From positions 310,001 to 374,000 of the forward strand of contig CM073193.1 of the NCBI GenBank assembly GCA_037042915.1: a stretch of 64,000 bases of DNA, given 5' to 3'. Every line of letters starts with the position of its first letter. Position 1 is the first letter of the stretch. The notes beneath the pieces were generated by a model. The model was given only the letters and a program-made list of their open reading frames with translations. It did no database searches and was not told where the DNA came from. Positions 19,898 through 47,000 of this stretch are shown here, piece by piece. The position numbers and the translations under genes are program-made. The stretch comes from Auricularia sp. M13. Taxonomy: Eukaryota; Basidiomycota; Agaricomycetes; Auriculariales; Auriculariaceae.

Positions 19898-20602
19898 TTG
19901 GTCGTGGCATGTCCCAAGCTATGTTTACGCTTTCTACGCTCTTTTACGCTCTGCTGTATGCAATGATAGAATGCATTTTATGTATATGTCCACACGTTGA
20001 CGTTGCGCAACGCCGAGCGTAACTTGATGTCGACCATCGCCCATCCTGGAGTTTTCCAGAGTCTACACCATGGTTTTCACTGAAGCTTGGCCCGCGGCGT
20101 AGAGTCGACATGCCAGCTGCTGTTTGTGCGCAACTTCTCGTACCTGTACAACTCCATGTGCCTGGCAAGGAGCTGCGAGCATAGAAGAAAACTCAGAAGG
20201 ATTCATTTCTCTTATGATTCCCGTAAAACGTCAATTTCAGGGTGATCCTACGGCTGGGCAACGTGCGCGGGACCGTAAAAAGTGCCGCGAAGCAGACAGA
20301 TTTCAACTTACCACTTTCGCTCGCGCCGTCCGGTGCATATACACCGCATTTTGTGCTCCCTCTCTCGTATCGCTGATATTGTACGGTCTGTTCTCAAACT
20401 CGAGAATTGCTCGACACACTGATCGGACCCTTTGCCCTTTCCGCTCCATCCGCTTCGGTCCTCGGTGAGACCCATCCGGATCCCCTCCCCCGCAACCCAG
20501 ATAAGCCGTGAAATTTTTTAAGCTCAGCAGACCTCTCCTTGACCTGGTACCCCCCCTTCCCCCCATAGTACCAGTGATTTGAGCCGTGTCTGCTTGCGCA
20601 TC
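19898..20602. other. Intergenic, left edge of duplicated segment
   Basis: Contains the 3' side of the zinc-finger gene and, from about 20235, sequence repeated nearly base for base at 29505 (beginning atttcagggtgatcctacgg). The duplicated part is the upstream region of the repeat-protein gene. Confidence 0.6.
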
Positions 20603-21298
20603 ATGTTCGCTGCATCCTTCTCCGCATCCTCCATCGCCTCCTCTTGCAGTGCGCAGAGTCTGAGCGCGTTCGTGTCTGAGGTCGCCGTCGCCAAGCGCGT
20701 CGGCGAGCTCACGAACGCTGCGATGGCTGCGCGTCGGGCGCGCTCGCGCCCGGCGTGGCAGAAGGCTGAGGACTCGGAGAAGAGCAGTGATACGCTTTGC
20801 GCATTTGTTGCTGATGTTGCTGCATCAGCAAGGTTGCCCGAGTTGACGAGCGCTGCCACGGCCGCTCGTCGCGCTCGCGCACGCCCTGCACTCGAAAGTG
20901 CTACATTTATACCCGCCTCTCAGCACAATAAGACGTCGAATACACTTCTCGATGAGATATCTGCGGCTCCATATGCCGATGAGCTGCAAGATGCCGCGAC
21001 TGCCGCTCGTCGCGCCCGCTCACGCCCGATTTATCACGACGGCCCGGCGAAAGCTGTTCCCACGCCGACTCAGATGCCTGAACCCATGCGAGTCCAGTAC
21101 GGTTATGCGTGCCAGACAATGCCCACGCGCACAGCACCACCTCCCTGTCATGAGCTTGAAGAACTGGAAGTCATCGTGTTCCCTGCTCCTGAGCGGAGGA
21201 GCTCGACGCTGGTCCGGATGGAGACTATGCTCCAAGATCTGAAGGAAAACGGCATTAATGCTGAAGTTATCCGTCGTAATTTTCACCGCAGTGACTGA
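20603..21298 (+). CDS. Ala/Arg-rich protein with three tandem repeats (intact copy)
   Basis: Single exon, 231 residues, family not recognised. Three imperfect units of about 46 residues end in AARRARSRP, AARRARARP and AARRARSRP, near residues 41-50, 86-95 and 133-142. Each is preceded by a predicted amphipathic stretch (AFVSEVAVAKRVGELTNAA, AFVADVAASARLPELTSAA, DEISAAPYADELQDAA). The second half is unrepeated: a Pro-rich linker, an acidic segment (CHELEELEVIVFPAPERR) and a helical end (LVRMETMLQDLKENGINAEV). No signal peptide or membrane segment. The basic repeats could bind nucleic acid or pack as helical hairpins, which is inference. The copy at 29882 has lost the frame, so this one is the likely functional gene. 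Confidence 0.6.
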   Translation: MFAASFSASSIASSCSAQSLSAFVSEVAVAKRVGELTNAAMAARRARSRPAWQKAEDSEKSSDTLCAFVADVAASARLPELTSAATAARRARARPALESATFIPASQHNKTSNTLLDEISAAPYADELQDAATAARRARSRPIYHDGPAKAVPTPTQMPEPMRVQYGYACQTMPTRTAPPPCHELEELEVIVFPAPERRSSTLVRMETMLQDLKENGINAEVIRRNFHRSD

Positions 21299-21525
21299 TG
21301 GCTTTACAGTGGCTTCTTTCTGGAGTCGGCGAGGGTTTTTCTCCTTTCAATTCATGTTGTTCATCTTCTGATCTGATTCTTTCTCTATTACCATAATTTC
21401 CATCTTAATCTTAATATCTTTTCTTTCCCTCTCATTGGCTTGAGACTCTAGAAAATTGTGCGATCATGTTGCGGTCACGCTCCGGCGAATTGCCGAGGTT
21501 ATTCTCACGCGCTGCTATAACCCGG

Positions 21526-23868
21526 ATGCGTGTCCTCGCACGCGTGCTGCCGGCCATATTGGCCGTGGGGCACGGTGCGCTCGCCCTACACGCGGAGGAC
21601 GCTGGCAAGGTCGACTGGCACAAGCAGCAAATCGGCATACCGCTCTCCGGGCCACGTTTTGTGCCAAATTTCCATCGCGTGCCTCCGTACAGACACGGCC
21701 AGACCTGGAAGAGCGTCGTTCTGACGGCCACTGAGGCCAACATCCTTGCTGGTATAAATCCAGCCGATGGAGCGCTTGGTGAGCAATATGCCTCGCTGGA
21801 TAGTGCTGAAGCTGACGGACTGACAGTATGGCGCAGACAGTTCTTAGCTGGCGATGCGATTGTAAATATGAAAACTAACGACGATGGTAATTCCCAACGC
21901 GCGCTTTCAAGGCATATTTCTAATTGTCATGCAGTCATTGCATTGTACGGACGCGGCGAGCCCAAAGCTGAAGCCGATTTGGACCCTCGCGGACCCGTCG
22001 CTGTGGCCGCATTATCCGGCCCTGGTGGTGCCAACTTGCGCGTCTTCGAGGCTACGAGTGGCCTGTCAACATTCGAAACCCAATTACATAAACCATAAGA
22101 CGCGTTTCTGACAGAACCCGTCACGCTGTCTAATGAGATCCAATTCGCGCTTGAGTCCCCGGACATGTTCGTCCTTACCAACGGCCGCTCGGTCACTCGT
22201 GTCAATGGACTCTCTGGGTTGAAGACATGGCGCTGGGAATCGCAGGACCAGAGGTAAGCAGTCGTATGACCGTTTGATTGCCTGCTTATGCCCAGTCAGT
22301 TCGTTATATACACCAAGCTCGTAGTCAGCTCGACAGCGGTATACGCGGCTGGCCTTGTCAAATCCATCTGGTCTTGCACTCTGCACGTTGTTGTGCTCGA
22401 CACGCAGACCGGCACCGAATTGGCCAGCGCTGACGTACCGTCGGACATCACGGACACGCAGGACTCGCTGGTCGCCGTATCCGCCAAAACGGTCGAGAAC
22501 CCATTCATGGTCTGGGTAGAAGGAGGCAACGCGGCGTACTTCGAGCTCAACCGCGAACTGTCCGGAAAGCCCGCGACGGTCGCAGGCGCCAAGTACGACC
22601 GCGTGCTCGACGTCAACCTGGAGCTCTCCGATATCGTGGTCGGCATCCGCCCCGATGGCAGCGCCCAGATTATCCGCCTGGACGTGCCGTCGCGCAAGGT
22701 TGTGCCCACATGGGAGTTCCCTCTGAGCAAGACGACGCCCGGCGAATACTCCGAGCCGACATTCTCGGGCACGCTGGACCGCCAGGGCAAGCCGTACGTC
22801 GCGCGAACATTCTGGGCGCACCAGCCCGCTGTCGGCGCGACGCACGTCTTGACTGCGCACGGCGACAAGGACGGCGGCTAGATTCACGGCACGGGCTTCA
22901 TGTTTGACACCATCGCGCACGGCATCATCGTACGCCGCGCCATAGACGCAGCCAACCCTCAACCCGGCGTCGTCGTTTCGCGTACGTTGCTCGTCGCCAG
23001 CACCGGCTCCCTGCAGCTCTGGCAGCAGGAGAAGATGGTCTGGAACCGCGAAGAAGCGCTGGGTAACCTCGCCGCCGTCGAGTTCGTCGACCTTCCAGAA
23101 CGCAAGGCCGTCGTTGCCGGTGCGACCGCTGGGTCTGAAGGCTTCGTGCCGCGACTCGTTCGCCACATCGCCAACCTGCAAAACCTGCCGACTTACGCGT
23201 TCGAGTAGTCGCAGCGGTTCCTGTCGAACTCGTACACCCTGACCGCCGCCAAGCCCGGCGACCTCTGGCGGGACCCCTTCGGCTTCCGGAAAGTCATAAT
23301 CGCCGCATCGCGTTCGGGCAAAGTCATCGTACTCGACTCGACCACCGGCGCGGTGATCTGGACGAAGCTGTTCGGAATGGACGCGCGTAGTAGTAAGTAC
23401 CATCGAGCCCGTCAAGATTCACGTCCTCCGCACGGCAGTGGAGACGAGCGAGCCCGAGGTCGTCACTCTTGCGCACCATCACATGCCTTGCGTACGTTCT
23501 TCTCGAAGCGCTGTGCTACTGCAATGCTTATCGCGGTCTTAGGAACACTCAGAAACGTTGGCCTACCACTTCTACGCGCTGACGGGCGAGCAAGTGTACA
23601 CTAAGGGCTTCACCGCGCTGTCCGGCGTGCTGCTCTTCAAGACGCCCATGCGCGACCCGTACCTCGTGCGCCGCCCGCACGAGCCTTCGGTGTACATTGG
23701 CCGCGTGCTGGCGAACAAGACGACGCTCTACCGGTACCTCAACCCGAGCTTGCTCGCGGTCGTGTCTTTCTCACGAGCGGGTCTGGATGTGGGACGGGCA
23801 TGCCCGATGGGCGTTGTCGACGGCGCGAAGGGTATCTGGCTCGTCACTGTTGAACTGTTCGAAGGCTC
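21526..23868 (+). pseudogene. EMC1 pseudogene (copy A)
   Basis: Duplicate of the intact EMC1 gene at 32237-35694. It keeps the signal-peptide start, the first introns and most of the luminal propeller region, but has in-frame stops at 22096, 22879 and 23206 where copy B has sense codons. It also has two deletions: one near 23665 removing about 255 bp of the copy B sequence, and one near 23830 removing about 130 bp, both at short matching strings. The last quarter, including the transmembrane helix, is absent because the duplication ends first. It cannot make EMC1. Confidence 0.92.
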
Positions 23869-24081
23869 GCCATGTACTTATTCGAGCCAGGCACGGAACG
23901 TTACTCGATTATTGAACAGAGATCTCAAATAATGTGCGAAAGGCTCAATTGCGCGTCTGATACCTGTACAACCTAAGGGGTCAAACGCAAAACTCGGACA
24001 GGCTCGGAGCTGTAGTCGAAAGGCAAGGCCCGGGCATCGGAGTGCAAAAATGGGTCATGCCTCTTGACCCTTATATTACCC

Positions 24082-25573
24082 ATGCCTGCCAACCTTAGCT
24101 CTCTGCGCGCTTGGCGCGAGTTGGATGTCCCTGGGCCCGGTCGGGCTGCCTGGGACCAGTTTGAGCCCTTCTTCAAGCAACACGGTTATAAGCTCTTCAG
24201 AGTGAGCGACGACATCACCGATCGTTTCCTGGTGCCACCCGCGGACTGCAGTGATGTACGCGCTGAAGATGACTACGCTCGCTTCCTGCCCGAATGTCTT
24301 GAGATGCCCCCCAGACAATCCATTTTCTACCCTCAGGCGAGTGCTCAGGCCTCGTTGGCTCCGTATAAAACCGATCTTACTAGATTTTATAGACTGGCAT
24401 TCATGTCGGTGCACGCTCGCCCGAAAACACTGACGTTGTCATTCGCATCATGGCCATTGGGGATGAAGGCCAGGAACACCTTGACATAATGCGCGCGCTG
24501 GCCGCGCCGGACGCGCAGGTCCCAGAAAATCATACAGTCCCGATGTTGCGCGAGCTGCGGATTGACAACATAGTATTTGGCATATTTCCGATGATGTGGG
24601 ACGACGGCATGGAGCGCCCGTGGTTCAAGACTGTGCGTGAGGTGCTTGACGCTTTAGAGCAGATTTTTGAAGTACGGCGCTCAAGTTCAAGTAATTCTCT
24701 TACTAAGTCGGCACCGTCAGGGCTTTGCATTTCTTCACGAGCGACTCATTGCTCATCGGGTGCGTGTCTACATACGACTGCATAACGTAGCATCTCGACC
24801 CTTACCTTCTGTCATCGCAGGATTTCTCATTCTTTGAAGTCTTTACAAACTACGGTCGCGGATTCGTTCACCAACCGAAGCCCGGCGCCTGCTATCGTAT
24901 ACCGCTCGTTTTTCGCTCCGTTTGCCCCGACTTGCGCTACTTTATCAACGACTTCGAACTCTCTGTTCAGTTTTCGCCGGAGTCGGATCCCGGAACGCGC
25001 GTAGTCACTGGCATTCCAGTCGCGCGTTACGGCGCCACAGCCGAGCAATATTCCAGGCACCTTGCCCCTGAGGCTGTCTGTGACATGCCGTACTGTCCAT
25101 TCAAGGCGGACATTTACCAACTTGGCAAGTGTGCTTCGGCTTCCTTTGGGGTACGCGTCATTGGCTATCCATTGTTTGCTTGCCGCTAATGGTGTTGTCC
25201 CAGAACATCGACGGTGTGCCGGGACTGCAGGACCTCTTTCTCGTTATGGGAAGCGACGATCCCAACGCGCGACCCACGGCCGCCCAGGCGCTGGCTTCGC
25301 TGCGCGCCATCCGTGAGCTGACGCCTCAAGAGGAACTAGATGATATTCCGACATCCGACACTGGACGATTTCGGCGCAGACTGCCAGGCGAATTATGGTA
25401 CGCCTCTTCTGTACATTTACGCTTTGACTGAGACGTTCTCTAGTCCCTGTATGATCTGCTCTTCGGCTCGGAGGGTTTTGACTCCTCGAAATCAGTCATC
25501 GTTTTTTACCTACAGACTGAAGGAAACGGCTGATAAATGTCAGGTTCAGAATTCCCCAGTTTCCTCTGTTTAG
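24082..25573 (+). CDS. Protein kinase-like protein, probable pseudokinase
   Basis: Exons 24082-24336, 24393-24671, 24721-24759, 24821-25150, 25204-25397 and 25444-25573 join to 408 residues. It resembles the large family of agaricomycete kinase-like proteins with an N-terminal region before a compact kinase domain. The domain shows VVIRIM where active kinases have the ATP-binding Lys, a GFAFLHERLIAHRD catalytic loop, YFINDFELS in place of DFG, and SRHLAPEAV as the activation-segment end. The HRD Asp is present, but the loop Asn, the VAIK Lys and the DFG Gly are not, so catalysis is doubtful. The first intron (24337-24392) starts with GC. It lies just right of the decayed EMC1 copy. Confidence 0.7.
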
Positions 25574-26968
25574 AATAAGTGAATACACGGAATTACTTTG
25601 CTATGTGAGCGACCATTGAAAGATGTGAACCAATTGGTCCGCGTTCGGGTCTGTCGTTTGATTACTGTGGATGTATAACCTTCATCGCTGGCTCTATGTG
25701 AGGAGGGAAGTCCTTCGCAGGGAACAGGTCGAATCTCTTTCCGAGTGGACGCGGCAGCATTACTTACAGGACGGGTCCGGATCGGGAGCAGATGTGGATG
25801 CGATCCGGCTATCGTCTTCACTATGACCACCATCCGCACAACTATCGTCGTTGAAAGTCGTTACACCCGCAAGGACACGTATAATTGGATTACCAAGAAT
25901 CCAAGATACTCGCCTGGAGATTTCCCCGACCAGAAGGGAGCCTGGAGCGTCCGGGTTAGTCTTCAAGTCCCGGATTCCGTCTTTCAGGCGATCACGTCGT
26001 CGTTGCTCGGTACCTCCACCATGATAACGCCCCAAGGGCCCTCGCGGGCAAACCCCGCTACCTTATGCAGTCAGTACCGTCAGTACATGGTTGTGTTCAT
26101 GTGCTCATAAACCTGCTATTCTTTGGGCAGTACGCCGCCGGTAGCAGCGCTCATGCGAGGATGGTTCCCACCTCGTCATTTGCGCCGCTACCTTGTTCGA
26201 TGATCCCCATGATCAGATTTTACATAGTCCAGTGTTCACAAGCCATGTGAAATCTTAATCTACTGTCTCCCAGATGTACCAAGCATGCTGACATTGCTGA
26301 GACTTGCGATTTGTTGCAGCAACACAATGCACACAATCTGTGGTCAAATGGGATGGGCTCGGAGTTGTTGTAGGGGGTGCGAGGCATACCGGAGTGCCTG
26401 CAGAGTTCCCTGGAGCAAACCCGAGCGTTCTCTGCAGCTCAGGCGGTTTGGTGCGGCCAGAGGCATATGCATATAAACACACTGCAGTGGATGGGAAACT
26501 CACCACTCGAGGTCAGCCCTCTTTGAGCCCTCTGGAAATGTGTCGTGATATGTTATGTGGGATTGGACTGCAGAAAGAGGGATACAAAATTGCATCCTAG
26601 GCGGAACTGCTGAGATGCGAGGAGAGTGCCCGTCGTCCATTATTCTACATGGGCAATGTGTTTGCGCCAGTGTGTTCAAGACCGACGCCGCACGCCATGA
26701 GAGGCATGTGGACGAGTGAATAGTCCTTGAGATGAGACATTCAAAAAGCTGAAGAACACCAAAGATAAGCTACAGAATGCATTCCGAGGCCTGCAGGTCC
26801 ATAAATCGGCTCTGGGAAGCGCGATATGAAATGAAGATCGTGTGTATCCCGACGATGGTCTCATGCGGACGTTTGGCGGGACTCAAATTGTGTCATAAAA
26901 CATAAAGGACGGAGATCGCCTGCGGGAATGTGCTCCTTTGCAGGAGCGGAAGCGGGGAATGGGGAGCG
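25574..26968. other. Region without a supported gene
   Basis: Short plus-strand frames (25823-26110, 26304-26600) have protein-like composition but no recognised family and no joining splice pattern. Possibly remnants of an older gene or element. Confidence 0.3.
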
Positions 26969-28017
26969 GGTGCATGTCGATGGCGGTACCTCGCATCGAT
27001 GCTGTAGCGGACGTGCAGGACAAAAGTCGTCTGCAGATGGACGATGTGTTGCGAGAGCGGCAACACAAGTTTGCGATCCAGATGTACACAGCAGGGAGCA
27101 GAAAGTCTTAGTGTGGCAAAGGCAAGTTAATGCAGTCTCCTGAGGGGTTTCCCGAGGGTGAGAAGCATGTGCGCTGCGAAGCATCGCCCCGTATTTCCTG
27201 CGCGACGCCCAGGGTGCCAGGTGCAGACGGCTTTGAAGACAAGAACGCGAACACCGAGTGTGCCAAGAGGAACCTGGCAGATGCGCAGTTGCTCAAGCCG
27301 AACGCTCCGGTGGAAGTTACCATAAAAGGGGAAGTTCATCAAAAGTGGCAGTTTACTATCAATAATTAAATAGTGCGGATTCGCTGGTGTTGCAGGGCTA
27401 AGACCCACTACCAAGGTAGCGGGAATCTCGGTCACGAGCGAGGCCGAAGCCACTGTTAATCCAACGCATACCATGGCTGTCGGCTCGGACAATACCCTCC
27501 ATTTTGATGGCGAGTGGAGGCAAGAGAGACCGTCGATCAGGGCGAATAAGGTGCGCTCAATGCAACATCATCATCATATTAGAAGTATGCTGATTTGTTT
27601 ATCGAGAATGGGGACGCGTTGATTACATTCGATGCCAATGTCCAGATCTACGTTCCGCAAAACTGCTTTTTCAAGATCAAGCAGGGACGGTAAGACATCA
27701 TTTTGCTGAATCTGTGCGCATCGTCAAGGGAACAACGCTGGGGACGAGGACGGCCGAGGAGCGCGCAAAGACGGCCGAGCATTACCGAGTGATGGAGAAC
27801 CACGTCCGGTGGACTTAGCACTCGGTGAACAACATCAAGCGCATGCTCTATCGGATGCTGCAGTGGTAGGCGCAGCACTTCGGTCAGTCGATCGAAGGGT
27901 CGATCGACAATCCGTTCACGAGCAAGGAGGAGGGGGAGGACAAAGAGGAGGCCGAGGAGGAGGCTGAGGAGGCGGTCGAGGAAGCGACCAAGGACGTGGC
28001 CGAGGAAGCGGACGAGT
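26969..28017 (+). pseudogene. Unidentified, apparently degenerate coding region
   Basis: Several plus-strand blocks read like protein: one around 27130-27369 ending in VHQKWQFTINN, one around 27396-27546 with TTKVAGISVTSEAEATVN, one around 27602-27690 with FIENGDALITFDANVQIYV, and an acidic tail near 27930-28017. They do not join into one open gene and the region looks broken. A short stretch (TKVAGISVTSE) resembles HYKVAGITLSSD read at 32038-32073. Family unknown; it may be a host gene remnant or part of an element. Confidence 0.25.
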
Positions 28018-29506
28018 AGGCGATCGAGTAGAGTAGTAGCGGGTGCGACCAAAGTCGCCAAAATGTAATAAATGAAAGTTTTCTTGGAACCGGGTGAAAA
28101 GCGAGTGAGCGAAGAGAAAGCGAATGAAAAGCGAGTGCTTGGATGTTCTCGAATTTCTTGAGGATTTGCTGGAATTCTTGATAGCTACCGGGAGCGCTGG
28201 GATTTGCAGCATAGAAGTCTTGAACTGCTTCTTGCGCGTGTTCGAAATTTTCTGAGCCCATCTCAGTGGTCTCGGAGTCGTCGGGGGTGCCGATGTGACC
28301 GATCCAGCGAATGCGAAAACGAAGGCGTGAGTGACGATGGCGATTGTCGATGCGTACGCTGAGTACTTCAAGCTTGTACTCCTGTTCGCCGTCGACGATG
28401 ACAGGCGGAGGAGGTTCTTGACGTTGGCCGGGGAACGCCTCTCGAGGGTGAGGTTCGAGCTGCGAGACATGAAAGACCGGGTGTACGCGAGCGAGGTAGT
28501 CGGGTAGGCTGAGAGTGAACGATTGCAAGCTAGGTTGAGCGACGATCAGGAACGGGCCTAATTATCGATCGGCGAGCTTGCGAGTGGGCTGCGTCGTCTT
28601 GATGTGCTCTGAGAGGACGTAGGCCATGTCGCCGACCTTGAAGTCAGGCGGGGGAGTGCGTCGAGCATTCGCAGAGGCGGTGTAGCGTTTCTGAGCAGCA
28701 GCGATCTGTTCCTTCAGAACATCCTGCAACTCGTGAATGTCGACAGCGAAGTCGCGAGCGCGAGCAGAGGCAACGTCGCACTCGGGGTAGACGGAGATGT
28801 TCGGGTGGGAACCCGTGTTGGCGAAGAAAGGCGAGACACCAGTCGAGTCGTTCGGGGTGTTGTTGGACGTGAACTCGGCGAGAGGAAGGAGCTCAGACCA
28901 GTTGTCCTGCTTGTAGTTGCAGTAGAGACGGAGGTACTGCTCGAGCGTCTGGTTCGTGTGTTCGACCTGACCGTTCACCTCCGGGTGGTGACCCGAGGTG
29001 AAGTGCATGGTCATGTTGAGGAGCGAGCCGAGTGCGCGGAGGAAGCGGGAGACGAATTCAGAGCCACGGTCGGTGGAGACGTGCGAGGGAGCGCCGTGAT
29101 TGGCGAAGACGTGGATGAGGAAGAGGCGCACGGGTTCTTCAGAGGTGATCTTGCCCTTGGTCGGGACGAAGATACCCTGCTTCGAAAGGCGATCAATAAT
29201 GACGAGTATCGCGGTGTAACCGTTGGACTCAGGGAGTTGTTCGATGAAGTCCATCGAGATTGAGTCCCAGTTGCGAAGCAGAATCGGGAGCGGTTGAAGT
29301 CGACCGTACGGCTTGTGTCGTCGAGACTTGCTGCATCCGCAAGTGACACAGGCTTGGACGTAGGTATGAATCGAGTCGCGCAGGTCGGGCCAATAGTACT
29401 CGCGGGCGACCATCTTGAGTGTCTTGTTCTGACCCGGATGGCCAGCGAGCGGGTGATCGTGCTTTTCGCGAAGGATATGAAGGCGACAATCGAGAGTGTT
29501 TGCTGA
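27884..29506 (-). mobile_element. Ty3/gypsy retroelement fragment (pol 3' part), fossil
   Basis: Minus-strand fossil of an LTR retrotransposon. Visible parts are the integrase zinc-binding region (HDHPLAGHPGQNKTLKMV with CVTCGCSK), the integrase core (WDSISMDFIEQLP, DRGSEFVSRF, EVNGQVEHTNQ) and a C-terminal part with a chromodomain-like segment. Gag, protease, reverse transcriptase, RNase H and recognisable LTRs are missing. It is broken: cut off at its 5' side exactly at the edge of duplication copy B, with at least one frame break besides. The readable integrase suggests moderate rather than great age. Confidence 0.88.
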
Positions 29507-29881
29507 TTTCAGGGTGATCCTACGGCTGGGCAACGTGCGTGGGACCGTAAAAAGTGCCGCGAAGCAGACGGATTTCATCCTACCACTTTCGCTCGCGCCA
29601 TCCGGTGTATATACACCGCATCTTCTGCTAGTATCCCTCTCTCATATCGCTGATATTGTACGGTCTGTTCTCAAACTCGAGAGTTGCTCTCGGACACACT
29701 GATCGGACCCTTTGCCCTTTCCGCTCCATCCGCTTCGGTCCTTGGTCAGACATACCCGATTCCCTCTGCCGCAACCCAGATAAGCCGTGAAATTTTTTAA
29801 GCTCATTAGACTCCTCCTTGACCCGGTACCCTCCCTCCCTCCCAGGGTACCAGTGATTAGAGCCGTGTCTGCTTGCGCATC

Positions 29882-30402
29882 ATGTTCGCTGCATCCTTCT
29901 CCGCATCCTCCATCGCCTCCTCTTGCAGTGCGCAGAGTCTGAGCGCGTTCGTGTCTGAGGTCGCCATCGCCAAGCGCGTCGGGCGCGCTCGCGCCCGGCG
30001 TTGCAGAAGGCTGAGGACTCGGAGAAGAGCAGTGATACGCTTTGCGCATTTGTTGCTGATGTTGCTGCATCAGCAAGGTTGCCCGAGTTGACGAGCGCTG
30101 CCACAGCTGCTCGTCGCGCCCGCTCACGCCCGATTTATCACGACGGTCCGGCGAGAGCTGTTCCAACGCCGACTCAGACGCCCGAGCCCATGCGAGTAAA
30201 GTACGGCTATGCGTGCCAGACTATGCCCACGCGCACAGTGCCACCTCCTTGTCATGAGCTTGAAGAACTGGAAGTCATCGTATTCCCTGCTCCTGAGCGC
30301 AGGAGTTCGACACTGGTTCGGATGGAGATTATGCTCCAGGATCTGAAGGAAAACGGCATTAATGCTGAAGTTATCCGTCGTAACTTCCACCGCAGTGGCT
30401 AA
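29882..30402 (+). pseudogene. Broken copy of the three-repeat protein gene
   Basis: Matches 20603-21298. Two deletions lie between short direct repeats: one of about 34 bp at a gcgcgtcgg repeat, which shifts the frame after AFVSEVAIAKRVG, and one of about 140 bp at a gctcgtcgcgc repeat, which removes a whole repeat unit. The second half stays readable in another frame from about 30001 and ends at the matching stop. Not expected to give the original protein. Confidence 0.85.
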
Positions 30403-30814
30403 TGGCTTTACAGTGACTTTTGTCTGGAGTCGGCGAGGGGTTTTCTCCTTTCAATCTTTATAAGTCCCATAGGCCGTTCCGGCACCGCCCGCTACCTTCA
30501 TAGACCCAATGTTTTCTGTCTATGAGAAGGTGTGGACTCAGTTGCGAGCGGAACTATGGAGGTAGAGTTGAATTTCCCTCTCAGTAACCACTCTCTTGAT
30601 GGACAAGTAATAGCTTGTGCTGCTGCTCAGACTCGTGACACTCAGTTTGGCACCTCGCCCGCACACCAGACAATGCCAGCAGCTGTACCTAGTCTCTGTG
30701 ATATTAGCGAGCACATTTTTCTCATTACCTTGGCATGAGACTTAATGACAGCTATAAACTCTGCAAGCGGCTGCAGCATGTGGCCACTAAGAACTGAACA
30801 TCTGTGCGCCCGAA

Positions 30815-31133
30815 TGTAAGGGGTACTTTGTGCTTAACTCCGAGCGCCGCTCATTAGGAATTGTTTTCGTCTATTTGGCAATACACTCTCTTACCGACTT
30901 CGCTTTTCACTCACGTTCAGGCGCGAAGCTTGAACCGTGAACCGTGAATTGCGAGACCGTACTCGCGCCCCCTGTCCTCTATATCGTCCTCGGGGGTCTG
31001 ACTGGCAGACCCCTACTCTGACTTATCGGTACAGACCGCTCATACGGCACGTACACCTCTGACGGTTGCCCGCCGTGACGTCAGTTGGACTTTCCTGCTA
31101 AGAACCTCAACGAGTGATCCCGCACTCGTTACA
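30815..31133. mobile_element. Solo LTR (319 bp), fossil
   Basis: Begins TGTAAGGGG and ends CGTTACA, so the termini are TGTAA...TTACA. It is flanked on both sides by ccgaa, a 5-bp target-site duplication. No internal retroelement sequence is attached, as expected after recombination between two LTRs. It lies in the extra sequence of copy B, so it is probably younger than the duplication. Superfamily (Ty1/copia or Ty3/gypsy) cannot be decided. Confidence 0.8.
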
Positions 31134-31211
31134 CCGAACCATTTGCTTAATCCAATGCTTAATGCATGCGATTCGCTGCACATCGAACACGACACGTCTG
31201 CCACCCACATA

Positions 31212-31479
31212 CTGTAAGCACACGAACTATTACCGGCCCCGCGGCTCCGTGACATGGCGGAACCATTACCGCGGAGGCTCCGTGACCGTGACAAAATGCT
31301 CCCATCACCGCCGTCGCGGAGCGGCGGCGAAAATTTTGGTATGTGTGAGGTCCCCGAGGGTCAAAAACGCGTGACATCCCATTACCGAGATCCGCCTGTG
31401 ACGCGTGAAAAAACACCTTTATTACCGGGCCGCGGCACCGCCGTGACGCGTGACGCGGTAATAGTTTGTGTGCTTACAG
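31212..31479. mobile_element. MITE 1, 268 bp TIR element with TA target duplication
   Basis: Inverted termini CTGTAAGCACAC(G/A)AACTATT extend for about 24 bp and are flanked by TA on both sides. The inside is GC-rich with repeated ATTACCG and CGTGAC strings in both orientations. No coding capacity. The TA duplication points to a Tc1/mariner/pogo-type transposase acting in trans. Confidence 0.82.
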
Positions 31480-31679
31480 TATAAACATTGTGGTACCGGG
31501 TGGAGGAAATTGAATGGGCGCACTCACGCGCGAGGCTGCGCGCCGCGCCGTTCGTGCGCCTAAATCTGACTGAGGCGCTCATGCGAGGCGCTTCGCGCCT
31601 CGCCATTCGCGCCACGAACACTCTTACTAGGTTCATAAGTTACTATACCGTTACCTACACAGGAACCTGAGCTCAAGAG

Positions 31680-32080
31680 TTGGCGGCGTGAGGAGCTGTG
31701 GCTAGAGCTGCATCAACCTCGGAACAAGGAGCCCGCGGACGTGCTCCTCATTGGGAACCGTCCGCGGAAGATTACCCCATTTATCGACCTGGGCATCAAT
31801 CGAGAGATCTTGAGCCAAAACGCGTTGTACAGTCGAAGCCCTTTTAACCCATAGCATTTGGGACCACCCAAAAGCTATGGGTTATGGGAATTATGGCCAA
31901 AGAGGGCGTTCATTTGTATGTAAATCTCGATTCCGGAGGCAGCCAATCGCTCTGGCCGGCTATGGATTATGGGCGAATAGGGCTATGGGTTATAAGGGCT
32001 TCGACTGTATTGCAGATTTGGTCATCACACGCCAAAGACCCACTACAAGGTAGCGGGAATTACACTGTCTTCTGATCTCA
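31680..32080 (+). pseudogene. Unidentified coding remnant split by MITE 2
   Basis: An open frame reads SWRREELWLELHQPR and PRKITPFIDLGINREILSQN up to the MITE. Beyond it the frame resumes with HTPKTHYKVAGITLSSD if the MITE is ignored. The last part resembles TKVAGISVTSE at 27.4 kb. Family not recognised. Confidence 0.35.
31830..32007. mobile_element. MITE 2, 178 bp TIR element with TA target duplication
   Basis: Inverted termini CAGTCGAAGCCCTT(T/A)TAACC run for about 26 bp, flanked by TA on each side. The CAGT end and TA duplication are typical of Tc1/mariner-derived MITEs. Internal AT-rich repeats of a CTATGGGTTAT motif; no coding capacity. Confidence 0.85.
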
Positions 32081-32236
32081 TTTCATCTTCATTAGCATGA
32101 TTTTCTCTTAATCTTAATACCTTTTCTATCCCTCTCATTGGCTTGAGACTCTAGAAAATTGTGCGATCATGAGGACACCTTGCGGTCACGCTCCGGCGAA
32201 TTGCCGAGGTTATTCTCACGCGCTGCTATAACCCGG

Positions 32237-35200
32237 ATGCGTGTCCTCGCACGCGTGCTGCCGGCCATATTGGCCGTGGGGCACGGTGCGCTCGCCCTAC
32301 ATGCGGAGGACGCTGGCAAGGTCGACTGGCACAAGCAGCAAATCGGCATACCGCTCTCCGGGCCACGTTTTGTGCCAAATTTCCATCGCGTGCCTCCGTA
32401 CAGACACGGCCAGACCTGGAAGAGCGTCGTTCTGACGGCCACTGAGGCCAACATCCTTGCTGGTATAAATCCAGCCGATGGAGCGCTTGGTGAGCAATAT
32501 GCCTCGCTGGATAGTGCTGAAGCTGACGGACTGACAGTATGGCGCAGACAGTTCTTAGCGGGCGATGCGATTGTAAATATGAAAACTAACGACGATGGTA
32601 ATTCCCAACGCGCGCTTTCAACGCATATTTCTAATTGTCATGCAGTCATTGCATTGTACGGACGCGGCGAGCCCAAAGCTGAAGCTGATTTGGACCCTCG
32701 CGGACCCGTCGTTGTGGCCGCATTATCCGGCCCTGGCGGTGCCAACTTGCGCGTCTTCGAGGCTACGAGTGGCCTGTTAACATTCGAAACCCAATTACAC
32801 AAACCACAAGACGCGTTTCTGACCGAACCCGTCACGCTGTCTAATGACATCCAATTCGCGCTTGACTCTGAGTCTCCGGATATCTTCGTCCTTACCAACG
32901 GCCGCTCGGTCACTCGCATCAATGGATTCTCTGGGTTGAAGAAATGGCACTGGGAATCGCAGGACCAGAGGTCAGCATTTTATATGATAATGAGCCGTAC
33001 CACCAGCCGCTGACGCATGGGTCAGTTCGGCTGTCATCTACACCAAGCTTGTGGTCAGCTCGACAGCGGTCTACGCAGTGGGCCTCGTCAAGTCGATCCG
33101 TTCTTACACTCTGCACGTTGTTGCGCTCGACACGCAGACCGGCACCGAATTGGCCAGCGCAGACATACCGTCGGACATTACGGACGCCCAGGACTCGCTA
33201 GTCGCTGTATCCACCAAAACAGTCGAGAATCCATTCATCATCTGGGCGGAAGGCGGCAACGCAGTGTACTTCGAGCTCAACCGCGAGCTGTCCGGAAAGC
33301 CCACGACGGTCGCAGGAGCCAAGTACGACCGCGTGCTCGACGTCAACCTGGAGCTCTCCGGTATCGTAGTCGGCATCCGCCCCGATGGCAGCGCCCAGAT
33401 TATCCGCCTGGACGTGCCGTCGCGCAAGATCGTCCCCGCATGGGAGTTCCCCGTCAGTAAGACAGCGCCGAGCGAATACTCAGAGTCGACGTTCTCGGGC
33501 ACGCTGGACCGCCAGGGCAAGCCGTACGTCGCGCGGACCTTCTGGGCACACCAGCCCGCTGTAGGCGCCACGCACGTCTTGACTGCGCATGGCGACAAGG
33601 ATGGTGGCCAGATTCACGGCACGGGCTTTAAGTTTGACACCATCGCGCACGGCATCATCGTCCGCGGCGCCATAGACGCAGCCAACCCCCAGCCTGGTGT
33701 CGTCGTCTCGCGCACACTGGTCGTCGCCAGCACCGGCTCCCTTCAGCTCTGGCAGCAGGAGAAGATGGTCTGGAACCGCGAAGAAGCGCTGGGAAACCTC
33801 GCCGCTGTCGAGTTCGTCGACCTCCCAGAACGTAAGGTCGTCGTTGCAGGCGCGGCCGCCGGCTCCGAAGGCTTCGTGCCGCGGCTCGTTCGCCACATCG
33901 CCAATCTGCAGAATTTACCCACGTACGCGTTCGAGTGGTCACAGCGTTTCCTTTCGAACTCCTATACCCTCAACGCCGCCAAGCCCGGCGACCTCTGGCG
34001 CGACCCCTTCGGCTTCCGAAAAGTCATCATCGCCGCGTCGCGCTCTGGCAAGGTCTTCGTGCTCGACTCGACCACTGGCGCAGTGATCTGGACGAAGCTG
34101 TTCGGAATGGACGCGCGCGGCGGTACCATCGAGCCCGTCAAGATTTACGTCCTTCGGACGGCGGTGGAGACGAGCGAGCCCGAGGTCGTCATTCTTGCGC
34201 ACCATCACATGCCTGGGGTATGTTTCTCCTCCAAGGGTCGTGCGACTACAATTCTTATTGTGCTCCTAGGAACCTTCGGAAACGGTCGCCTACCACTTCT
34301 ACGCGCTGACGGGCGAACAAGTGTACACCAAGGGCTTCACAGCGCTCTCCGGCGTCCTGCTTTTCAAGACGCCCATGCGAGACGCGTACCTCGTCCAGTC
34401 GAGCCCGCGCCTCATCGTGCTGGTGGACGACACGCTCAAGGCGCACATGTACCCGCTGAACGAGGCCTCGGCGAAGGTCTACAACAAACTTGGCGACGCC
34501 ATCCGCTTCGCCCTCCCGTCCACGTCGCTCGCGTCCAACCACCTCGTCGGATACTCGACGCCGCTCTCGCCGAAGTACCCCTTCCCCGCTTTGGAGCAGT
34601 GGCGCACGGCCTTCCCGGCGGGCGAGGAGATTATCTCCGTCGTGCGCCGCCCGCACGAGCCGTCGGTGTCCATTGGCCGCGTGCTGGCGAACAAGACGAC
34701 GCTTTACAGATACCTCAACCCGAACTTGGTCGCGGTCTTGTCTTCCTCGCGAGCGGGTCTGGATGTCGTACCGGCGTGCGCGGTCAGCGTGGTTGACGGC
34801 GCGAAGGGCACCATAGTTTACCGCGCGGAGCTGCACGCGCGCGGCGTGCCGTGCGATGTCCACGTCGCGTTCGCGCAGAACTGGCTTACGTATCACTATT
34901 ACGACCCGCGCGACGGCGGGCAGGACTCGGTCAAGGGCTTCCGGCTCGTCACTGTTGAACTGTTCGAAGGCTCTGGGCCGGACGACAAGATCTCGAGGCA
35001 AGCTCTTGTCTACTTCCACGACGGACCTGGCAGTGGTTGACGAGACTTATGTAGCTCGGACGCGTCCGCCGAGTCGATCGACCTGACGCGCGTGCACGCC
35101 GTCGAGAATAGCTTCATTGCGCTCGCGGGCGTCGCCGCGATGGCCACGACGACGACGAAGCATGGCATTACGACGCGCAACTTGATTGGTGTGTTTCTTC

Positions 35201-35694
35201 CTTGTTTCTTTGTCGCGTGAGCTGAATGCGAGTGTGCGCAGTGGCGAACTCGAAGAACCAGGTCGTCTCTCTTCCGCGGCGGCTGCTCGACCCGCGGCGG
35301 CACAGAGGCAAGCCATCCGCCGCGGACCAGGAGGAGGGCCTCGTGCCCTACGAGCCCGTCATCCCGGACGACCCGCGGATGGTCATCTCGCACGGCTATC
35401 CGGTGCGTCCTCTTTCGCGCTGCTCTTCCTGATGGGCAACCAATGCTCCTTCAGGTGATGGGCGTGCGCCATATCGTCACCTCGCCCGCACAGCTGGAGA
35501 GCACGAGCCTGGTCCTCGCGTACGGGCTCGACCTCTTCGGCACGCGCGTCACGCCCAGCGGGACGTTTGACCTGCTGAGCGAGAGCTTCAATAAGGTCCA
35601 GCTTGCGTTGACTGTGTGTGGGCTGCTCATCGCCATCATCATCGTGAAACCTATCGCGCGCAACAAGGTCTTGCGGCAAAAGTGGTACGGATAG
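32237..35694 (+). CDS. EMC1: ER membrane protein complex subunit 1 (intact copy B)
   Basis: Large luminal subunit of the EMC insertase, which inserts tail-anchored and multi-pass proteins into the ER membrane. Exons 32237-32597, 32646-32970, 33026-34217, 34270-34997, 35055-35188, 35242-35402 and 35455-35694 join to 1046 residues, the family size. MRVLARVLPAILAVGHGALA is a signal peptide followed by the family motif AGKVDWHKQQIG. The long middle is the beta-propeller region. The C-terminus has VMGVRHIVTSPAQLESTSLV, one membrane helix (LTVCGLLIAIIIV) and the basic ARNKVLRQKWYG end. Intron 34998-35054 starts with GC. Exon 2 carries about 22 extra residues (near YGRGEPKAEADLDPRGPV) not expected in the family. 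Confidence 0.95.
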
Positions 35695-43238: not shown

Positions 43239-44042
43239 GTTTCTTGACTACTCTCGCAGTCTCCTCGCGCTCTGCACCTGCTCGCACACGCTCGCGGTCA
43301 TGCGCATCAACCCGTATCATATCTTGGAACGCATACACGCCCCTTTAGTTTCTCGCTCCTCACTACTCCCTCATCTAATCCCTATCACTCGTCGCCTGAA
43401 ACGATACATTCATTTACCCACCTTCCTCTGCCCGATCCCGTGCCGCCTTTTCCGCGCGTCCAGAAGCTCTACACTTACCTACGCTCTAATGCAAGCCCGC
43501 ACTACTCCTCCCATCACTCTCGCTCGCATCATACCGTATAGAACTACGACTCGATTGTCTCGACCATCCATACCAAAATAAAATGGTCGATTACCGCTCG
43601 AAGTCATCCTGCTGCACTCTGTGAACTCAACCGGAGGTGGACACCGAGTGATCTGCAAGAGCTAAGCACAATCTCTTCCAAAGCTAGTGCCGTAGTGGGC
43701 CCAAATATACTGCTCGTTCAGGAAAGCTCGCTGCGAAATTCCTTTCAAACGGCGGCCTATTCAGGCCACGAACGTGCCGTGCGGAGACGCTTAAGTCCCA
43801 GATGCGGAAGCATGAACCGGATATCATTCTTCTATTATCGACGGACATAGTTCACCGGGTTAGTCGGGATATACTAACTGGGCGGGCGAGGTGCACTGGC
43901 CTCGTCCGCAAGACTCTCAGTGCAACCATACTCTCCTCAAATTAGATACAATCTCAGGTCATCTCACAACTGGTCAGGCTCATTAACCTCTGATGCCAGA
44001 GCAGCGGCCGATCCTATCGCCGCGGCCGCCGTCGAGGAAGGC
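43239..44042. other. Spacer between LINE ORF1 and ORF2
   Basis: About 800 bp with no supported gene. The ORF2 frame opens after a stop at 43875-43877 and its first ATG is at 44043, so downstream initiation would need reinitiation or a separate transcript. Confidence 0.5.
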
Positions 44043-47000
44043 ATGGAGGTCACGGAAGGCGATAATACGTCCGCCTCACGCGGAAGTGACAGCTCGGACT
44101 CTCCGAGAGGAGTAGTACAGCTAGCAGCTGACGCGAAGAGGCGGACGGCTTCAAGAGCAAATAAGCTCGCGGTAGATGCGCCGCAGGGCATCAATACTAT
44201 GGCAAATGATGCCCAGAGTGCCGACGGTGACACTGAATCTTCGAGCGACTCTCAAACGAGCCATCTCAATTTTTATGACTCTCAGAGTCATTCTAAACGG
44301 AGTAGCAAAGACTCTCCTGCATCCTTGTCTGATGAAGACTCAATACAAACTCCTAGTTCATGGAGAATACCGTTACCAGGTCGTAGTAGCTCACTCTCAG
44401 ATGTTGACCCCGACGCTTTCGAGCGCCGTATTCCCCGCGAAGCCTGCGAAGATAGGGCGCGGCTCACGGCAAGTAAAAAGAAGACTAAAGCGTGTCTGAA
44501 ACTCGCCACTGAGAACATGCGCGGGCGCGGTTCCTCGAAAATTGCTGGTAATAGAAAATGGAGAAGAATCTCCGAGGACATTAGACGCACAAAAATTGGT
44601 GTAATGGCAATACAGGAGACTCACCTGTCTGCGGAACATGTTAGAGATATACATAACCTGCATCAACATCTAGTAGTCATAAACTCACCTCATCCAACGA
44701 ATCCTACGGGGGCGGGTGGCATTGCGATAGTACTGAACAAGCTGCTTACGAATACGGACACCGTAAGAACGCACGTATTAGTCCCCGGACGCGCCATCAT
44801 TGTCACATTTAGATGGCACAGAGAAGACGACATCTCCATCCTGGCGACGTACGCGCCAACAGACAGGCGTGAGAACCGAGAGATGTGGGACTCCATCAGA
44901 TCCAAAATTAGAAAGTCAAAAGGAAAAATACCCAAGCCCGATGTGCTGATGGGGGATTTCAACATGGTGGAGGACCCTATTGATAAATACCCTGCGAAGC
45001 TGTCACCAATCGATAATCCAGAGTCCTTCCGGTCGCTTAAAAGGTACTTGGCACTAACGGACTGCTGGCGGGAGACGTACCCTGACCGAGTCGAATGGAC
45101 TTGGCGTAACAGCACGCGTACTGCGATGTCACGAATAGACAGGATTTACCTCACCCAAGCGTTGTCTCAGTCGAGTAGGAGCTGGACAACTTGCATGTCC
45201 GACCTGACAGTCGATGATCACAGCAGAGTAACAGTTGAAATTGTCAATCTGGATATGCCAGTCATTGGCCCAGGACGCTGGTCGATGCGAAGTGATCTGG
45301 CGAAAGACAAAGAGCTCCTCAACGCAACCAATACACTCGGGAAGGCCGCAGAGATAGAAATCGCCAGGATACATGCAGGCGGGAGGACCGAAGAGCACAA
45401 TGCGCAGCGTGTTTGGAAGTCGATGAAGACGGAGATCATAGAAATTGCCAAGAAGCGATCTCGCGAGATAAACTGCGCGCGGAATTCCAAGCTGGATGAA
45501 TGTCTCCGGGACAGAGAAGCGGCCAAGAGCCAAGTGCTACGCGCAGAATCGAAAGAGCAAGAATCGCATGCAAGGGAACATCTACGTGATGTGGAGAAAG
45601 ATTTGAATCGCATTCAGGAGACGGCACATAGACGTACCTTCAGGCGAAGACAAACCAAGGCGTGGGTGGAAGCTGAGACCATGCAGAAGTCGTGGTTCGG
45701 ATGGGCAAAAGAAAATAAGCCGCGGGATACCTTCCTCTCCCTACGAAAGCAAGGCTCTGACCCGCCCGTGTACGCGACTGATTCGAAGACGATGTGTGAA
45801 ATAGCGAAAGAGTACCATGACAGTGTTCAGAGGGTAGACCTTGATGTAGACGCTCTGGATAGGGAAAAGGCCACGGTCGAAGTTCTATCGCACATCGAGT
45901 GCGTGGCGGACGCGGCTGCAAAGACTGAAATGGGAGCATCAATATCACGTGATAACGTAATCGAGTCACTCTCGACGGCGAAGAACGGGAAGGCCGCAGG
46001 AATAGACGGCTTAATCTACGAGTTCTGGAAAGAACTGGCAAGGAGGCATGATGAGACCAGCAATATAAAGGATCCGTGGTTTGACCTAGCGTACGTACTC
46101 ACGGAGGTTTACGCGGACATCGAGATGTATGGCGTTGCGGACGGGACAGGCTTTGCGGACGGCTGGCTTTGCCCGCTATACAAAAAAGGGGAAAGAAGTG
46201 AGATCGCAAATTTTAGACCGATAACGTTACTAAATACCGATTATAAGATATATACGAAGGCCTTAGCACTCAAGCTCGCTCGTGCTGCACCGAAACTTGT
46301 GCACGAATCACAGGCGGGTTTTGTCAGAGGAAGAAGCATAACTGAGCAAACCAAAATCACCTCATTGATCCTGGATTACGCTGAGGCCTACGAAGAAAAT
46401 GGGATGATAGTTGCACTCGATCAAGAAAAGGCTTACGATCGAATCCGCCATGACTACTTATCGCGTGTTCTCCGAAGGTATGAATTACCAGAGACCTTCG
46501 TCCGAGCCGTTGAGAGACTTTACACGGGCGCAAGGACCTCAGTTATGCTCAACGGGTGCATGAGCTCAACTTTCACAGTAACCCGCGGAGTCCGTCAGGG
46601 CGATCCTTTGTCGTGTCTGCTCTTCAATTTAGCCATCGAGCCTTTGCCAGCAATGCTCAGGCACTCACAGCTCTGCGGCTACGACATCCCGGGACTCACA
46701 CGAAAGCTAATCGCAACGCTATATGCGGACGACACGACCGTATATCTGGCCAGCGATGACTCCTTCGCACTGCTCACACAGATTCTAGATCAATGGTGTC
46801 TTGCATCAGGCGCGAAATTTAATACGAAGAAGACTGAAATCATACCTCTCGGATCGGCGGATTACCGCAATCAGTTATGCGAAAGTAGGAAAATTCAAGC
46901 GACCGGAGAGACTCTACCTGATGGGATACGGATTGCCAAAGACGGCGAGCCGACCAGAATCCTAGGAACCTGGCCCGGAAATGGCGTCAAAGAGGCGAAC

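Follow-up and report, generated by a model that had tools for sequence, protein, structure and literature searches.

A predicted full-length EMC1 gene among dead and partial copies in a duplication and gene-conversion cluster of Auricularia sp. M13

Results

Duplicated units on one contig

We analysed a window of 64,000 nucleotides (C1:310001-374000) in the genome of Auricularia sp. M13, which comprises 52.1 Mb in 14 contigs. Its gene structure and short introns are those expected of a basidiomycete. The window contains two homologous direct repeats with identical gene order, copy A (20234-23868) and copy B (29506-34973). The first-pass annotation had described them as segmental copies, and this is borne out by the blocks of A that match B (20234-20886, 20993-21351, 21364-23667, 23664-23832 and 23828-23868), which are 88-93% identical to it. 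The jumps in spacing between A and B correspond to a 1.6-kb insert in B and to small deletions. A third copy, C, makes it evident that the A-type unit extends beyond 23868 to 25491. The end of A is thus separated from the start of B by 4.0 kb on a single contig, and for this reason we infer that the two rarely separate.

Treating A and B as a simple pair had to be abandoned, as further copies, C to F, were found (Table 1). Copy C and the partial copy D are inverted and lie 21-77 kb away, and E and F are found 81-90 kb further on, so that the whole cluster occupies about 252-436 kb of contig C1. The last piece of D (305092-305011) probably belongs to this copy, judging by its order and strand. 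No obvious telomere was seen in the first 300 bases of contig 1.

Table 1. Features of the cluster (window positions unless a contig is given)
Feature	Position	Strand	Remarks
Copy A unit	20063..25491	+	Repeat gene, dead EMC1, unnamed downstream gene; bounds set by copy C; 93.6% to C1:304975-303504(-), 95.8% to C1:256543-252642(-)
Repeat-protein gene of A	20603..21298	+	231 aa, open; three units ending in AARRARxRP
EMC1 of A, dead, 3'-truncated	21526..23868	+	Stops at codons 159, 408, 517; 4-nt insertion; 6-, 249- and 129-nt deletions
Stretch matching relatives of the downstream gene	24081..25400	+	In A distributed across several frames, where introns are not distinguished from breaks
Retroelement integrase ORF (H2C2 + rve)	28562..29641	-	Reaches into copy B at its left end
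Copy B unit	29506..35694	+	Broken repeat gene, 1.6-kb insert, complete EMC1
Repeat gene of B, broken	29861..30399	+	Mosaic of D-like and A-like stretches
Repetitive element between repeat gene and EMC1 of B	30462..32058		About 180 nt upstream of the start codon; many partial genome matches
Gene-conversion tract	32166..32790	+	B nearly identical to dead A; 7/617 columns differ; edges set by eye
EMC1 of B, predicted complete	32237-32489, 32538-32597, 32646-32970, 33026-34217, 34270-34997, 35055-35188, 35242-35402, 35455-35694	+	8 exons, 1030 aa; full model, plausible splice sites
Copy C	C1:304975-303504, 296470-296426, 256543-252642	-	Three collinear pieces vs A: 93.6%; 45 nt, 100%; 95.8%
Copy D, partial	C1:308565 to about 305011	-	Repeat gene and pieces of the EMC1 front
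Copy E	C1:427681-426832	-	Repeat gene only; 81-82%
Copy F	C1:435331-436192	+	Repeat gene only; 81-82%
Diverged EMC1 scraps	C3:939866-940210, C3:944089-944470

The family of the downstream gene has 15 DNA matches in the genome and looks kinase-like by eye only. A Pfam search of four frames of the gene in A returned no match, and a search of four pieces of its relatives returned one match at chance level (E 0.36, below the cut-off). Leaving A and C aside, its closest relative (74%) is located between the two EMC1 scraps on C3, so the association of EMC1 with this neighbour may be older than the cluster. The 1.6-kb element is absent from A, C and D, and D keeps the empty site. Proximity to a mating-type locus was considered as a cause of the divergence and rejected: the sole Homeobox_KN match is on C3, and all five STE3 matches are on C7.

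The repeat-protein gene is broken in copy B only

The repeat-protein gene of A is open over 231 codons, as had been noted, and five of the six copies are open (A 231 aa, C 229, D 226, E 228 and F 228), with dN/dS ranging from 0.18 to 0.36 across all 10 pairs of the open copies. In this genome the family is restricted to C1 303-437 kb, where it has 8 matches, three of which are pieces in B. A Pfam search with the repeat protein found no family match, and structure prediction from the single sequence had a mean pLDDT of 46.9 and a pTM of 0.18.

The frameshift previously reported in the B copy is a 34-nt deletion between two 9-nt GCGCGTCGG repeats. A second deletion of 141 nt is in frame and takes out one repeat unit. 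From 20475 onwards, the majority of 75-nt windows place the broken gene nearest to D (93-100%). A is the closest match at 99-100% in the windows 20625-20700 and 20775-20850, and at 93% in 20400-20475; the 75-nt window at 21000 barely discriminates the source (95, 95 and 96%).

EMC1 is predicted to be complete in B and is dead in A and C

The EMC1 gene of B has plausible splice sites and includes one GC-AG intron, and its predicted product scores 254.3 bits against PF07774 (EMC1_C; cut-off 27) and 69.6 bits against PF25293 (EMC1_N, beta-propeller; cut-off 34). It also matches EMC1 chains in the PDB (best E 1.4e-59). Judged from its sequence, it is a full-length member of the EMC1 family with both EMC1-specific domains in one open protein. 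The gene had been called whole, which is correct, but the interval assigned to it was too short, as it runs to 35694. This is the sole complete EMC1 in the genome: among 21 protein matches, all those that fall outside B are pieces, and the EMC1_C domain was found at B only (3 exon matches). EMC1 function would hence be expected to rest on B.

The EMC1 of A is indeed ruined, as the first reading of the window had it, and its homology does not extend beyond B 34973, which leaves it without the C-terminal domain. Most of its lesions recur in C, namely the TAA at codon 159, the 6-nt deletion, the +4-nt shift, the 249- and 129-nt deletions and the 3' junction with its truncation. The stops at codons 408 and 517 are found in A only, and exon deletions of 4, 9, 1 and 5 nt and two inserts in exon 1 are found in C only; a TAA at codon 825 of C was left uncounted as the alignment is non-homologous there. 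The common lesions mean that the death of EMC1 is older than the A/C duplication. The EMC1 genes of A and C are duplicated (non-processed) pseudogenes, with the sequence of introns 1-4 retained alongside stops and indels and an intact, probably working B also present.

A conversion tract covers the start of EMC1

Over about 0.6 kb, introns included, A and B are 99% identical. Within the 617 aligned columns of this tract, A and B differ at 7 positions, A and C at 13 (20 are expected from the rest of the alignment), and B and C at 16 (2.6%). Differences unique to B occupy 5 of 617 columns in the tract vs 151 of 1593 outside (Fisher 1e-16), leaving out two patches, 137 columns in total, in which C resembles B. 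In a shuffle test, 0 of 10,000 permutations reached the observed minimum. Noncoding columns behave in the same way, with 1 difference in 159 in the tract compared to 15 in 42 in intron 3 and 13 in 51 in intron 4, so the near-identity is not explained by selection on the protein. Such a sharply bounded near-identity of coding and noncoding sequence inside a diverged duplicate is gene conversion.

The direction of the conversion is probably from the dead A to the living B, provided that the event postdates the A/C split. A transfer from B after the split predicts a B-C difference of about 10% in the tract, far from the 2.6% observed. Singletons in the tract are 2 for A and 11 for C (binomial p 0.022), whereas beyond the tract the two numbers are balanced (21 and 23); the imbalance between tract and outside has a Fisher p of 0.054 and rests on 13 sites. 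We give about even odds that the only complete EMC1 is a chimera of two long-separated versions, with its first ~150 codons copied from the version that is now dead. After position 32737, the next site at which B stands apart is 32807, which belongs to the stop that A and C carry at codon 159 and that B lacks. The first departure of B from both dead copies beyond the tract is thus their first stop, as if selection had bounded the copying.

Both EMC1 versions appear to have been constrained for a long time

In Nei-Gojobori counts with the Jukes-Cantor correction, which small conversions may distort, B and A differ outside the tract by a dS of 0.35 and a dN of 0.047 (547 codons). For B vs a composite of A and C reconstructed by parsimony, dS is 0.30, dN is 0.030 and dN/dS is 0.10 over 549 codons outside the tract (103 synonymous and 36 nonsynonymous differences); with the patches removed, dN/dS is 0.11 over 502 codons. 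A dS of about 0.30 combined with a dN/dS of about 0.10 argues that the B and A/C versions were both constrained for most of their divergence and that one of them died late. With patches removed, equal branches and a background ratio of 0, the unconstrained share of the A/C branch is at most 22%, and it is less if the background is positive. The assumption of equal branches is based on 13 sites polarised with a single C3 fragment, which divide 7 to 6 between B and A/C and show no lean; 3 sites were left unpolarised.

For the period after the A/C split, dN/dS with patches excluded is 0.81 on the A branch (5 synonymous, 12 nonsynonymous) and 0.33 on the C branch (12 synonymous, 12 nonsynonymous), and 0.45 and 0.31, respectively, with patches included. 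The C-branch ratio is below the expectation for a dead gene; these post-split counts are small. The A-C comparison gives 0.47, patches excluded. That this value and the 0.33 of the C branch are not 1 would reflect either constraint that outlasted the shared lesions or further small conversions that are hidden.

Discussion

We read the C1 locus as a cluster of diverged versions of one unit, repeat gene plus EMC1, which have undergone recurrent copying, inversion, interruption by inserts and patching through conversion, with a late death of EMC1 in the A/C lineage and a separate loss in B; we put the probability of this reading at roughly 0.6. Two versions of EMC1, that of B and that of the A/C ancestor, would have been present together for a long time under constraint. 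The A/C version would then have been hit by a nonsense mutation, a frameshift, deletions and a 3' truncation, and the dead unit would have been duplicated to give A and C. The exchange of about 0.6 kb between A and B at the start of EMC1 would have come later, its most likely direction being from A to B. The repeat gene of B would have been broken separately, by deletions between repeats, a loss buffered by the five of six repeat genes that are open. With a single whole EMC1 whose front nearly matches the dead copy, the losses look like separate events and not like a swap. Such a cluster is the most economical account, and the complementary pattern of A and B would come from two unrelated losses.

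The first-pass annotation had proposed a reciprocal loss after a recent duplication, in which A and B were once both intact and each dropped a different gene that was covered by the other. The complementary intact genes of A and B are what such a history would leave. However, we find it quite unlikely: more than two copies exist, EMC1-A was dead before the A/C split as its lesions are also in C, and the synonymous differences, once counted, amount to a dS of 0.30-0.35 outside the tract, so that divergence is not low throughout as 'recent' would require. The repeat gene, moreover, is open in four other copies (C, D, E and F), and hence its loss in B is not the counterpart of its retention in A alone. 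An intact third copy of both genes elsewhere had been named as evidence that would count against a reciprocal loss; one was found for the repeat gene, but not for EMC1. The A/C EMC1 could also have been dead from birth, having been copied only as far as B 34973 and never having functioned. A and C share the point at which homology to EMC1 ends, both lack the C-terminal domain, and D likewise has only the 5' part; yet at a dS of 0.30 and with equal branches an unconstrained copy predicts a dN of at least about 0.15, and the 0.030 to 0.033 seen makes this origin very unlikely.

The long constraint on both versions also fits two lineages with one gene each. The A/C EMC1 might then have been the working gene of a related species or of a diverged haplotype, and it would have been partly imported together with its neighbours (by introgression or in a hybrid) before it decayed. 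We consider this rather unlikely, because the versions B, A/C, D and C3 lie at varied distances and in both orientations, which points to recurrent duplication, and no long collinear second block was seen within the stretches compared. Long-coexisting paralogs would account for the old divergence of B and A/C in one genome; diverged alleles or introgression would also fit these data. An assembly artefact with two haplotypes placed side by side is scarcely credible, given the distinct flanks, opposite orientations, insertions that differ from copy to copy, about 10% divergence, an EMC1-downstream-gene junction that is identical in two places, and zero N in the window and in seven other stretches checked.

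On the preferred history of a recurrently copied and converted cluster, EMC1, which encodes a core subunit of the ER insertase, lies inside an active duplication and conversion cluster and has part of its sequence in common with dead relatives. Should the inferred direction be right, the locus offers a clean natural example of a pseudogene as a sequence donor. Two-copy readings of such loci can produce a false story of 'reciprocal loss' as well as false dates, because conversion makes parts look young. Otherwise, this is ordinary genome turnover.

Comparison with known systems

Scannell et al. in 2006 reportedly described alternative duplicate copies being lost in different lineages after whole-genome duplication. 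The cluster resembles such reciprocal gene loss in that different copies retain different genes, but here a single genome is involved, the lost genes are not the same, the shared lesions are older and there are extra copies. Compared with known EMC1, the B protein itself is unremarkable; the striking feature is how many dead and partial copies accompany its gene. Among the literature matches listed, nothing concerned EMC1 pseudogenes or duplicates, and the single EMC duplication named in the passages of PMC4602282 that were covered is that of vertebrate Emc8/9.

PMC2876123 describes yeast pseudogenes that arose by species-specific duplication, some of them being duplicated again afterwards, and these are found preferentially less than 30 kb from a chromosome end. 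The dead EMC1 genes are likewise pseudogenes from duplication that were then duplicated themselves, but the cluster that contains them is situated about 250-440 kb away from the end of the contig. For the human gene-pseudogene pair GBA1/GBAP1, conversion has been described following CRISPR cleavage in human cells (PMC12075325). Both systems have close direct repeats on one chromosome, and transfer of sequence from a dead to a live copy, as in GBA1/GBAP1, is the probable direction in A and B. The GBA1 case is CRISPR-induced, whereas the A/B conversion would be a natural one, as read from one genome.

Inserted elements, outlying EMC1 fragments and repeat-gene copies

The 39.9-kb stretch that interrupts the dead EMC1 of copy C, a minus-strand copy of the unit, has inverted ends, whose sequence begins CACCGCGGGCAAA; 3 bp of its target, TAG, appear to have been duplicated. 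Ten ORFs from the stretch were tested against Pfam: one matched an integrase core (rva_4), and the remaining nine matched no Pfam family. The stretch is either a very large transposon or a set of nested insertions. The neighboring 7.0-kb insert is bounded by 14-bp inverted ends of sequence CATCGGGGAAAACC, and 2 bp, CC, appear to be duplicated.

The empty site of the 1.6-kb element upstream of EMC1 was seen in copy D, a partial minus-strand copy. Judged by its domains, the long open frame in the window is a LINE-type element.

No match to the EMC1 stretches of copies A and B was found in the 20 kb of sequence compared around the repeat-gene copies E and F. On contig 3, the EMC1 fragments lie about 206 kb from the sole Homeobox_KN match.

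Features in the window and on contigs 1 and 3 (C1, C3) of assembly GCA_037042915.1
Feature	Position	Description
Repetitive 1.6-kb element, inserted	window 30462-32058	about 180 nt upstream of the start codon of the sole complete EMC1
Open frame, 1814 aa	window 43920-49364	reverse transcriptase and endonuclease domains
39.9-kb stretch	C1:256544-296425	within exon 1 of copy C's dead EMC1
Second insert, 7.0 kb	C1:296471-303503	45 bp from the 39.9-kb stretch
Open repeat-gene copies E and F (n=2)	C1:426832-427681 and 435331-436192	mutually inverted, 7.6 kb between
EMC1 fragments (n=2)	C3:939866-944470	flanking the nearest relative of the gene downstream of EMC1 in copies A and C
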